52,741 nt of DNA from an uncultured Patescibacteria group bacterium. GTDB taxonomy: Bacteria; Patescibacteriota; JACMRA01. Under the pieces are notes generated by a model. It was not told where the DNA came from. It saw nothing but the letters and a program-made list of their open reading frames with translations, and ran no database searches. The translations under genes and the position numbers were made by a program. Of this stretch, positions 29,167-32,180 are shown in pieces. Each line of letters starts with the position of its first letter. The stretch's first letter is position 1. The stretch is from positions 64,576-117,316 of the forward strand of contig CALITC010000010.1 in assembly GCA_938041505.1 (NCBI GenBank). The letters are read 5' to 3'.

Positions 29167-30528
29167 ATGATTCAATCCACCAATCCAGCCACCGGTCAAA
29201 TTATTCAAACCTACGATGAGATCTCAGCCGAAGTTCTAGAGTCCAAGATTGCTCAAGCCTATGATGAATTTCAGAAGTGGAAACAGGTCAGCGTGGCTGA
29301 TCGTGAGAAAATGTTTATGAAACTTTGTGCAGAATTACGAGCCAACAGATCGCACTATGCCCACCTAATTACTTTGGAAATGGGTTGTCCGATTAGCCAA
29401 GCCGAGGCTGAGATAGAAAAGTGTGCCTATATTGCTGAGCTCACTGCCAGCCAGGCTCATGGCTATCTACAACCTAAGAACATCAAGACTGATGCTTCTG
29501 AGAGCTATATATCTTACGAACCTCTTGGAGTGGTTTTGCACGTTGCACCTTGGAATTATCCATTTTACCTTGCCCTGCGCCCTGCTCTAGCGGCTATCAT
29601 GTCTGGGAACACCGTCTTACTCAAGCATGCCTCCAACGTCCCGCAGTGCGCACTTGCTCTTGAGGAGTTGTTCAAAAAGGCAGGCTTCCCTGATGGGGTG
29701 TTCGAGAGTTTGCTGATTAGTTCTAGCAAGGTTGAAGGTATTATCAACGATGATCGAGTAAGTATGGTGACCTTGATTGGTAGTGACAAAGCAGGGTCTG
29801 CTGTAGGGTGTTGCGCTGGAAAGTCGATTAAGAAGAGTGTGATGGAGCTTGGGGGAAGCGACCCGATGATTGTGATGCCAGACGCGGATATCGATGAGGT
29901 TATTAAGGCTGCGAGTTACACCAGACTGCGGAATGCTGGGCAAAGCTGCAACGCTTCCAAACGATTTATTGTACATAGAAGCATAGTTGAAGAATTCACT
30001 AACAAGCTCAAAGATGCATTTTCTCAGGAAGTTATCGGAGATCCGACTGAGAAAGAAACAACTTTTGGACCGGTTGCAACAGCCAGTAGTATTGAGGATC
30101 TTAAGAGGCAAGTTGAGGGCTCAGTGAAGCTTGGAGCCAAGATTGTTACCGGTGGTAAGCAGATGGATCGAGATGGGTATTATTGGGAGCCGACAATTCT
30201 TGCGAGTGTCCACGAAGACATGCCAGTGATGCAAGAAGAGGTATTTGGGCCGGTAGCTCCAATCTTTAGTTGTAACAGCTTGGAAGAAGCGATTGCAGTA
30301 GCTAATCGCACGCCCTACGGACTTGGAGCCAGCCTGTGGACTAAGGATATTGAGCTAGCTCGCACTGTCATTCCACGACTAGAGGCAGGCAATGTCTATA
30401 TCAACAAAGTAGTCCGAGGCAATCCAAAACTACCTTTTGGAGGAATCAAAAAAACAGGCTTTGGCAGAGAGTTTGGAGAGCATGGATTCTATGAATTTGT
30501 CAACATCAAGAGTGTGGTTATTGCATAA
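29167..30528 (+). CDS. NAD(P)-dependent aldehyde dehydrogenase
   Basis: The 453-residue enzyme oxidises an aldehyde to the acid; the family pattern is closest to succinate-semialdehyde dehydrogenases. Visible landmarks are PWNYPFYLALRPALAAIMSGN (NAD site), KHAS, MELGGSDPMIV (general-base Glu), RNAGQSCNASKRF (catalytic Cys), and EVFGPVAPIFS near the end. Length is normal for the short SSADH group. No metabolic partner is adjacent. It lies convergent to nothing and is followed by an RNA-like intergenic region. Confidence 0.93.
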   Translation: MIQSTNPATGQIIQTYDEISAEVLESKIAQAYDEFQKWKQVSVADREKMFMKLCAELRANRSHYAHLITLEMGCPISQAEAEIEKCAYIAELTASQAHGYLQPKNIKTDASESYISYEPLGVVLHVAPWNYPFYLALRPALAAIMSGNTVLLKHASNVPQCALALEELFKKAGFPDGVFESLLISSSKVEGIINDDRVSMVTLIGSDKAGSAVGCCAGKSIKKSVMELGGSDPMIVMPDADIDEVIKAASYTRLRNAGQSCNASKRFIVHRSIVEEFTNKLKDAFSQEVIGDPTEKETTFGPVATASSIEDLKRQVEGSVKLGAKIVTGGKQMDRDGYYWEPTILASVHEDMPVMQEEVFGPVAPIFSCNSLEEAIAVANRTPYGLGASLWTKDIELARTVIPRLEAGNVYINKVVRGNPKLPFGGIKKTGFGREFGEHGFYEFVNIKSVVIA

Positions 30529-30552: not shown

Positions 30553-30581
30553 TTGACAGTATCTTATTTATAAGCTATATT
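30553..30581 (+). promoter_or_regulatory. Promoter of the candidate RNA at 30588-30888
   Basis: TTGACA, 17 nt, TATATT, starting 25 nt after the aldehyde dehydrogenase stop. The expected start is about 30588. Confidence 0.75.
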
Positions 30582-30587
30582 AATATT

Positions 30588-30888
30588 AACCTATCGTAAA
30601 ATAGGTAGCAAAATAAAAAAACACAACTTAATAATAACTCATTTTGGAGGTGTCTCATGCAATGGAGTTAGTAGTTATTAGCGACGAAAGCTAATTGTGT
30701 TTGTATGTTTATTCTTAATGAACTGGTGCTGCTATTTGAACGCAGAAAAACAAACACTCTGACCTTGAATTTGCATAATAAACTTATGTCTGTTCTTAAT
30801 TCGAAATTTTCTTTTCAGAAATATAAGAAAGGTTATAATTCCACAACTAAAAGCAACATTTACCGTCTTTTCTAAAGGACGGCTTTTT
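30588..30888 (+). ncRNA. Candidate structured RNA with ideal Shine-Dalgarno and a tiny ORF
   Basis: This 300-nt unit has a consensus promoter and a terminator but no normal gene. The 5' end forms a hairpin (ACCTAT / ATAGGT, 30589-30606). AAACACAA (30619-30626) can pair with TTGTGTTT (30695-30702), but GTGTTTGT (30697-30704) can equally pair with ACAAACAC (30750-30757), so two exclusive folds exist. An inner stem TAATAACT / AGTTATTA (30632-30639 / 30673-30680) holds in its loop GGAGG at 30646-30650. Six nt later comes ATG CAA TGG AGT TAG (MQWS). A second ATG at 30662 gives MELVVISDES. It may be an attenuator, a regulatory RNA or a remnant of a gene leader. I recognise no known RNA family. Confidence 0.5.
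30863..30888 (+). terminator. Terminator of the candidate RNA
   Basis: CCGTC pairs with GACGG around a T/A-rich loop that can extend the stem, followed by CTTTTT. Confidence 0.7.
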
Positions 30889-30964
30889 GTTATAGATTTC
30901 TGATTCGGAACTTATTCTATCTTATCCAAGTGTAAACTATGGATAAATTACTAATTTTTTTTGG

Positions 30965-31046
30965 TCGCGGAGGAGCTAGTTGAGATTTTTTCTCAAAGAG
31001 CGCTCCTCATTGGACTAGGTATTTTTCTTAGTCCAATATTTTTATG
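30965..31046 (+). other. Two-hairpin element ending in a strong terminator
   Basis: GAGGAGC (30970-30976) pairs perfectly with GCTCCTC (31002-31008), and an internal TTGAG / CTCAA can pair inside. Directly after it ATTGGACTA (31009-31017) pairs with TAGTCCAAT (31029-31037), followed by ATTTTT. I see no clear promoter between 30890 and 30965, so this may terminate readthrough from upstream or be the end of a small RNA. No coding sequence is convincing between 30900 and 31160. Confidence 0.5.
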
Positions 31047-31164
31047 TCAATTATTTAGTTTCGTCGATGGATTTGCCTGCCTGACTATCCCTACCCCTAG
31101 GAGTTGCGCCATAGTTGCAGAAAGAAGTTTGAAATAGAATTGTTACACACTCAAGGGTTATAGC

Positions 31165-31194
31165 TTGACAAGGTCGATTTTTTGAGGTTATGAT
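31165..31194 (+). promoter_or_regulatory. Promoter of the gene at 31228-31629
   Basis: TTGACA, 18 nt, TATGAT; start near 31201, about 27 nt before the ATG. Confidence 0.7.
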
Positions 31195-31227: not shown

Positions 31228-31629
31228 ATGAAGTTAAGTCTGGCTCAGATCAATGCAATGCCCTTAGATGTATTTAGTATTCTATGGTTTACCAATCTTC
31301 TTGATAAGGTATTCATGTTTGATATTCCAGAAGGTGAAGCACTCAATGATTTAGCTTTTGGCATCTTTTTTACCAATAGCATTGCAGAATTGCAGCAAAG
31401 CTTTGAAGATGTTGATCTGAAGTTTTTGAACCAAGTTTTTGTCCCGTATTTTCGAGCGCATTACAGTCATAGTTTTGGTTTTTTTGGTTTTAGGATTCGT
31501 ACAAACTTACCATTAGCACAAAAACAGATGGTTTACGATAATTTTAGAAGCCAGCTATTAGACCTCATTAACTCATTTTTGCAGGGTGTTGTTATATCAA
31601 AACCCCGATATGAAAAATACATGAAATAA
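31228..31629 (+). CDS. Orphan protein, 133 residues
   Basis: It starts at ATG 31228 after AGGAGTTTACGATA. The protein is hydrophobic and aromatic but lacks a clear membrane helix: FSILWFTNLLDKVFMFDIPEGEAL near the N-terminus, HYSHSFGFFGFRIRTNLPLAQKQMVYDNF in the second half. It is probably an all-helical soluble domain. It is a one-gene unit with its own promoter. Family not recognised. No sign of damage in the frame. Confidence 0.7.
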   Translation: MKLSLAQINAMPLDVFSILWFTNLLDKVFMFDIPEGEALNDLAFGIFFTNSIAELQQSFEDVDLKFLNQVFVPYFRAHYSHSFGFFGFRIRTNLPLAQKQMVYDNFRSQLLDLINSFLQGVVISKPRYEKYMK

Positions 31630-31665: not shown

Positions 31666-31694
31666 TTGACAAGTGTAATTTTTTGTAGTATATT
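31666..31694 (+). promoter_or_regulatory. Promoter of the candidate RNA at 31701-31804
   Basis: TTGACA, 17 nt, TATATT; the expected start is near 31701. Confidence 0.75.
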
Positions 31695-31700
31695 ACATGT

Positions 31701-31804
31701 AAGTTCTTCGAGATTAGACTCTACTACAATGCTGTTTTATTTACATTGGGAGGTGATCATTTCGTACACTCAGACCAAGCATAATCACTTGGTCTCTATT
31801 TTTT
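31701..31804 (+). ncRNA. Candidate small RNA, about 104 nt, carrying a perfect anti-anti-SD sequence
   Basis: A consensus promoter and a perfect terminator stem (AGACCAAG / CTTGGTCT, then TATTTTTT; 31772-31804) enclose about 100 nt without an ORF starting at ATG, GTG or TTG. At 31748-31759 it contains GGGAGGTGATCA, of which GGAGGTGATC is complementary to the 3' end of bacterial 16S rRNA over ten bases. Only an ATT codon stands at proper distance; reading from it would give a 19-residue peptide running through the terminator. Either a small RNA that contacts 30S subunits, or the leader of a lost gene. Confidence 0.5.
31772..31804 (+). terminator. Terminator of the candidate small RNA
   Basis: Perfect 8-bp stem AGACCAAG / CTTGGTCT with an 8-nt loop, then CTATTTTTT. 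Confidence 0.85.
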
Positions 31805-31882: not shown

Positions 31883-31938
31883 AGGTCTATATAAAACTAT
31901 GTTCCTCGAGCATTCGAGATAATAGACCTGTGTGTTTT
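31883..31938 (+). other. Long hairpin upstream of the small membrane protein gene
   Basis: AGGTCTAT (31883-31890) pairs perfectly with ATAGACCT (31922-31929). A smaller CTCGAG-type hairpin lies inside the loop, and GTGTGTTTTT follows. It may be a terminator or attenuator ahead of the gene at 31956. Confidence 0.45.
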
Positions 31939-31955
31939 TGGCATATCGGTCTATT

Positions 31956-32180
31956 ATGGAAATTGTAGGATTTAACTTGCTTCTTTTACATGTTCTCTTT
32001 GCTCTTACTTTTTTATGGAGGTATTTTCGACCTTTGGTGAGAAGTGAAATGGATTTTGATCCAGATGGCATCATTTTAAATGTGAGGGATTACACTTCAT
32101 TAAGAACCACCTACCTCAGACCAATTGTTATCTCGGTTTTTAGGTCGTTCTTACTTATGTTGCTGCCCAATTTGGTTTAA
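31956..32180 (+). CDS. Small membrane protein, 74 residues
   Basis: From ATG 31956 the frame reads MEIVGFNLLLLHVLFALTFLWRYF, a single hydrophobic N-terminal segment. A hydrophilic part follows (RPLVRSEMDFDPDGIILNVRDY), then a second hydrophobic stretch near the C-terminus. No Shine-Dalgarno is evident. Support comes from the excellent plus-strand terminator 27 nt after the stop. It may be translated weakly or under control of the hairpin at 31883-31938. A minus-strand ORF over the same bases looks like a shadow. Function unknown. Confidence 0.45.
   Translation: MEIVGFNLLLLHVLFALTFLWRYFRPLVRSEMDFDPDGIILNVRDYTSLRTTYLRPIVISVFRSFLLMLLPNLV

Follow-up and report, generated by a model that had tools for sequence, protein, structure and literature searches.

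The window analyzed here is a 52,741-nucleotide stretch of the draft genome (1.12 Mb, 69% complete) of an uncultured, ultra-small bacterium of the Patescibacteria (CPR). Our focus is a promoter-to-terminator unit, referred to below as unit 1, in the 699 intergenic nt that separate an aldehyde dehydrogenase gene from an orphan open reading frame (ORF) of 133 amino acids. The elements of this region are as follows:

29167-30528, + strand: aldehyde dehydrogenase (ALDH) gene, upstream neighbour of unit 1
30553-30581, + strand: promoter 1, TTGACA-17-TATATT, sigma-70-type, 11/12 consensus positions, read from the sequence
30588-30606, + strand: predicted 5' end of the RNA, a 6-bp hairpin ACCTAT/ATAGGT (RNA fold, -5.3 kcal/mol)
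30646-30652, + strand: Shine-Dalgarno (SD) sequence GGAGGTG, partly paired in a weak hairpin (GGAGG at 30646-30650)
30657-30671, + strand: four-codon ORF MQWS, ATG CAA TGG AGT TAG (ATGCAATGGAGTTAG), with a second TAG next (TAGTAG to 30674)
30662-30694, + strand: alternative 10-codon ORF MELVVISDES, stop TAA, its ATG 11 nt past GGAGG
30863-30889, + strand: intrinsic terminator 1, an 8-bp stem (30863-30882) with a 4-nt loop, then CTTTTTG, read from the sequence
30967-31047, + strand: two tandem hairpins, the second a terminator (31009-31047), from sequence and folding
31228-31629, + strand: ORF133, the orphan ORF of 133 aa, downstream neighbour of unit 1

The promoter and the terminator together suggest that unit 1 is transcribed, with a start site that we place by inference at about 30588, 7 nt past the -10 box, and a predicted RNA of about 300 nt (30588-30889). 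A + strand promoter matching at least 11/12 positions occurs in 1.6% of dinucleotide shuffles of the 699-nt region. The sequence-only reading of this DNA had described some 300 nt with a strong promoter and a terminator but without a gene, and this description holds, in that the promoter matches 11/12 positions, the terminator stem is followed by CTTTTTG, and no known gene lies in the unit. The 5' hairpin is matched in stability by 3% of intergenic 23-nt windows, and the stretch between it and GGAGGTG is A-rich. Beyond terminator 1, the tandem hairpins could possibly serve as a back-up 3' end upon read-through. The segment 30895-31047, which begins just past the end of the region covered by the sequence-only reading and was thus missed there, is the sole strongly structured part among those tested (z = -5.0, with 0/200 shuffles folding as well).

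Searches of the family genomes and of phage and viral collections do not turn up ORF133, and its structure is predicted with low confidence (mean pLDDT 55). Genetic code 25 was considered because relatives are labelled Gracilibacteria and SR1, and was rejected: the long ORFs are intact under table 11, which applies to this genome, TGA ends two of 38 genes, and code 25 yields no convincing ORF in the unit. Amber read-through was likewise dismissed, TAG being a stop in use that ends six of the 38 genes. ARAGORN finds no tmRNA or tRNA in the window, and Rfam gives no match at the gathering score, only weak chance matches.

The SD of unit 1, about 58 nt from the predicted start site, is strong by the standards of its surroundings. 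The anti-SD is intact, as the 16S 3' end of the genome itself shows (L151 positions 428-412, antisense strand), and the duplex between the two is calculated at -15.0 kcal/mol. Of the gene starts of the window, 22 were scored and the best reaches -11.9 kcal/mol, most gene starts there having little or no SD despite the intact anti-SD. Shuffles of the unit contain GGAGGTG in 0.28% of cases, and GGAGG with a well-spaced ATG in 0.5%. The spacing from GGAGG to ATG 30657 is 6 nt, such that SD, start, a few codons and a stop follow one another in the layout of a minigene. That GGAGG is suitably placed before ATG CAA TGG AGT TAG, as previously proposed, is correct, both sequences being found exactly. 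Two further descriptions stand in part. The four-codon ORF is indeed nearly absent, but this no longer applies if ATG 30662 is used, which gives 10 codons. Similarly, GGAGG was said to sit in a hairpin loop, but it is not simply looped out, as its GAG forms a weak 3-bp helix with CUC 30654-30656 (the three bases being unpaired with probabilities of about 0.1, 0.04 and 0.11).

Downstream of the mini-ORFs, a segment of 10 nt can enter either of two helices:

30619-30626 with 30695-30702, + strand: helix H1, 5' arm AAACACAA and 3' arm TTGTGTTT, from folding
30697-30704 with 30750-30757, + strand: helix H2, 5' arm GTGTTTGT and 3' arm ACAAACAC, from folding
30695-30704, + strand: shared segment, in the 3' arm of H1 and the 5' arm of H2

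Folding bears out the earlier claim that 30695-30704 can pair upstream or downstream, as two mutually exclusive 8-bp helices. The RNA truncated at 30705 favours H1, while the full-length RNA favours H2 over H1 (about 0.89 vs 0.10). As a preference for H1 and then H2 is the normal order of co-transcriptional folding, no regulatory reading is required. Shuffling yields a double 8-mer switch of this kind in 1.8% of cases and a double 7-mer switch in 18%; about 1% of all 303-nt windows contain the 8-mer form. Overall, the folding of unit 1 is not clearly better than that of shuffles (z = -1.6 for the whole unit, -0.6 without the terminator, and -0.9 for the part closed by H1), and the switch is probably due to chance. 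We note that all shuffle probabilities given here are post hoc, the feature having been chosen from 52 kb, and that much weight can therefore be given to the promoter, the terminator and the SD alone.

The sequence-only reading missed a further gene-less promoter-SD-terminator unit 1.1 kb downstream (31666-31803), here called the second unit and itself spotted after the fact, whose -35 and -10 boxes are identical to those of unit 1:

31666-31694, + strand: second-unit promoter, TTGACA-17-TATATT
31749-31758, + strand: GGAGGTGATC, a 10-nt complement of the 16S 3' end (-20.7 kcal/mol)
31772-31803, + strand: second-unit terminator, read from the sequence

Its predicted RNA is about 100 nt long (31701-31803), and the SD lies 48-58 nt from the predicted 5' end in both units. 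The second unit holds no gene, and no start codon is found at a usable distance from GGAGGTGATC. Both units outpair all 22 scored gene starts with the 16S rRNA, and, the antisense strand of the 16S gene aside, GGAGGTGATC is the strongest intergenic anti-SD site in a 325-kb sample of this genome. Sites of -15 kcal/mol or stronger are, however, not rare genome-wide, with 91 coding and nine intergenic examples in that sample. Pairing between the two units, or of either one with ORF133 or the ALDH start, is no better than in shuffles. Downstream of the second unit, an orphan 82-aa ORF (31932-32180) has the look of a small membrane protein.

Of the 60 strong intergenic promoters in the 325-kb sample, 14 proved to be gene-less. 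GGAGG is present in three of these 14, comprising the two window units and a unit encoding a 26-aa peptide, such that a strong SD is combined with the lack of a gene only in the two window units. The peptide-encoding unit (L147, G000:C10, 11139-11370) has a strong promoter, GGAGGAGG, the hydrophobic peptide MNHRIFRLVLIILIFLFQIIQRFLDN and a terminator, and looks like a small membrane peptide gene of type I toxin-like character. Elsewhere in the same genome, an orphan 12/12 promoter on the minus strand (L158, G000:C9, 5323-5210) is followed by a terminator-like stem within about 95 nt, and the sequence upstream of this promoter recurs as a near copy about 780 nt further on.

In a census of 58 genomes, a promoter paired with GGAGGTG nearly always precedes a gene, the gene-less cases being L116, L117, L120 and the second window unit. 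L117 (G014:C9, about 1500-1858), from another Patescibacteria genome, is a 300-nt gene-less unit with a promoter, AGGAGGTG, a four-codon ORF MGGG, a terminator-like end and a fold z of -4.4; it was rejected as a relative of unit 1, its own sequence being private to its genome but for one short match elsewhere. L120 (G033:C79, about 511-710) is a gene-less promoter with GGAGGTG, a terminator-like stem and no start codon, and resembles the second window unit. These cases are analogies to unit 1, and not its relatives.

A DNA search with the unit against 58 relatives and 380 genomes of the phylum returned short, scattered matches to different parts of it, with no shared architecture. A covariance model built from the single sequence in its favoured fold found only itself among the 380 genomes and nothing credible in the sample of its own genome. 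The ALDH gene is present in four of the five family relatives, and the model search revealed no similar unit behind it there; no same-genus genome is listed among the relatives compared. The sequence-only reading had suggested a covariance search for the paired segments and had named loss of the stems in relatives as counting against it; as neither DNA nor model search of these genomes finds any relative, this outcome has largely come about for the stems. With no homologue found by either route, there is no evidence of selection on any part of unit 1, which is most likely a lineage-specific, indeed species-specific, RNA.

Taking these observations into account, we tentatively favour, among several readings, that in which unit 1 is a small orphan RNA stabilized by ribosome docking, of the STAB-SD or minigene type. 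Of the readings that assign the SD a role while invoking no protein, it is the most economical. The RNA transcribed from unit 1 would be small (about 300 nt), stand-alone and lineage-specific, and its strong SD would dock a ribosome or a 30S subunit at a distance of about 58 nt from the 5' end. Docking would take place whether or not the 4- or 10-codon minigene is translated. The docked ribosome or subunit, together with the 5'-terminal hairpin, would then keep RNase J from degrading the RNA in the 5'-to-3' direction, and the sister RNA (31701-31803) would be protected in like manner, its SD being longer and lacking a start codon. The promoter, terminator, SD, minigene, 5' hairpin, sister unit and RNase J gene of this explanation are seen in the sequence, and from them we infer transcription, ribosome binding, protection and a later role of the RNA. 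RNase J is encoded in this genome (TIGR00649 at 525 bits, cut-off 400), as well as in all five family relatives, well above the family cut-off. That ribosome binding itself may be the function of unit 1, as the sequence-only reading had put forward, is plausible on this analysis, and gains some indirect support from the second unit with its longer SD, the hairpin at the predicted 5' end and the RNase J gene. The pairing energies of both units relative to the scored gene starts, the scarcity of GGAGG among the 14 gene-less promoters and the existence of further gene-less promoter-SD units in the phylum, L117 among them, also count in favour of docking. Against docking, the SD is partly paired, no homologue is found by DNA or covariance model, and, as noted above, sites of its strength are not rare in the genome.

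Nearly as likely as docking is that unit 1 is a plain orphan small RNA, or another short gene-less transcript, whose SD, mini-ORF and pair of helices arose by chance. The same genome does contain orphan promoter-terminator units without an SD, such as L158 near 5323. In addition, folding is near the shuffled expectation, the double 7-mer is common in shuffles, and nothing is conserved in DNA or covariance-model searches, all in line with this possibility. However, GGAGGTG occurs in each of two neighbouring units, at 0.28% each in shuffles, and the well-spaced ATG makes coincidence less easy still, even though both of these arguments are post hoc.

Next in order is the decay of a small gene, which we consider unlikely. 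Unit 1 would then be the remnant of a gene of about 72 codons, of which the promoter, the SD, ATG 30657 and the terminator survive, broken by TAGTAG at codons 5-6 or, in a variant of this reading, by a frame change from the frame of ATG 30662. The frame of ATG 30657 does remain open for 66 codons past TAGTAG (30675-30875, + strand), a point missed by the sequence-only reading, with its stop TAA at 30873-30875 in the terminator loop, and a 66-codon open frame running into the terminator occurs in 0.4% of shuffles for that frame, or 1.4% for any frame. Within this continued frame lies a further ORF:

from ATG 30705, + strand: 56-aa ORF

Despite its length, the open frame does not look coding, as its codon score of -8.7 over 66 codons is below that of all 67-codon segments of the window genes (lowest about -6), and Pfam and NCBIfam give no match for the 56-aa ORF. 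Weak protein hits in the 380 genomes are chance matches, most of them with in-frame stops and the one in the same family antisense to EF-G, and the predicted structure of the 66-aa frame is of low confidence and uninformative (mean pLDDT 66). Testing unit 1 as a small protein gene thus revealed neither coding-like codon usage nor homologues.

The 56-aa ORF also invites a reading based on translational coupling, in which translation of MELVVISDES would open the helices near ATG 30705 and allow re-initiation on this ORF. The arrangement is suggestive, as the stop of the 10-codon ORF (30692-30694), the shared segment (30695-30704) and ATG 30705 adjoin, the stop ending 10 nt before the ATG. ATG 30705 has no SD, however, codon usage is non-coding, an ORF of at least 56 codons is present in 4.4% of shuffles, and the first two bases of AUG 30705 are mostly unpaired in both folds, all of which render coupling improbable.

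There is also a very small chance that both window RNAs have the ribosome as their target in trans, occupying the 16S 3' tail through 7- and 10-nt complementarity to the anti-SD. If true, translation would be biased toward the weak-SD and SD-less genes that dominate the genome, and this ultra-small bacterium would possess a pair of small RNAs directed at the ribosome.

Least probable of all is a transcription attenuator acting on ORF133 (31228-31629) or another downstream gene, despite a leader-like layout of SD, short ORF with Trp, alternative helices and terminator upstream of a gene. Neither helix overlaps the terminator, from the stem of which the shared segment is about 100 nt away, and with either H1 or H2 forced the terminator still forms, with probabilities of 0.7-1.0 at all eight pairs. 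The SD is not freed in either case, the GAG core of SD 30646 being mostly paired both ways. ORF133 is preceded by the second terminator (31009-31047) and a separate 11/12 promoter (31165-31194). With the terminator unchanged, the SD not freed, and ORF133 behind a second terminator with a promoter of its own, attenuation is rejected; the earlier reading of the exclusive folds as attenuator-like is not supported on these points, nor by a folding energy near that of shuffles. A translational attenuator of the erm type was set aside on similar grounds, as ATG 30705 lacks an SD and the GAG core of SD 30646 is mostly paired either way. Should the docking idea fail, unit 1 would still serve as a useful caution that chance can readily supply two alternative helices of 8 bp in an AT-rich 300-mer.

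Returning to ribosome docking, known systems offer close parallels. Where bacteria lack RNase E, the stability conferred by leaders is commonly determined by occlusion of the 5' end and by a strong SD, which need not be accompanied by a start codon (PMC3997798). The STAB-SD leaders of Bacillus (cryIIIA type; PMC3997798) resemble unit 1 in having a strong SD in the 5' region with a dispensable start codon, and the host of unit 1 likewise has RNase J and a structured 5' end on the RNA; the difference is that the SD there stabilizes a long mRNA, whereas here it would lie on a gene-less RNA of about 300 nt (unit 1) or about 100 nt (second unit). Minigenes, such as the six-codon minigene of LEE4 and axe-txe mg2 (PMC8708949), resemble unit 1 in that a strong SD precedes a very short ORF and the RNA is AU-rich, and they illustrate the principle that ribosome occupancy can itself be the function: in LEE4 mRNA, ribosome binding to the SD of the minigene suffices for protection (PMC8708949). 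Those minigenes, however, are located in the leaders of real genes, while that of unit 1 is on a predicted stand-alone transcript.

Translational and transcriptional attenuators of the erm and amino-acid operon types, with their leader peptides, also combine a short ORF with mutually exclusive helices, but in unit 1 the helices gate neither the terminator nor any downstream gene's SD, and no gene stands out as being regulated. The layout of unit 1 is also that of orphan small RNAs and small mRNAs that have a sigma-70 promoter and an intrinsic terminator, and several more of these are present in this genome; what sets the two window units apart is the strong SD without a gene, found only in them in the 325-kb sample. 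Within the literature collection searched, no paper joins Patescibacteria, small RNA and Shine-Dalgarno, and RNA regulation in this group therefore looks little explored. If ribosome docking does apply, it would represent the STAB-SD or minigene device on gene-less RNAs, in a genome with mostly weak-SD starts. Judged from its sequence, unit 1 would be ordinary in kind, the twist being that two adjacent gene-less RNAs carry the strongest predicted ribosome-docking sites of their neighbourhood.
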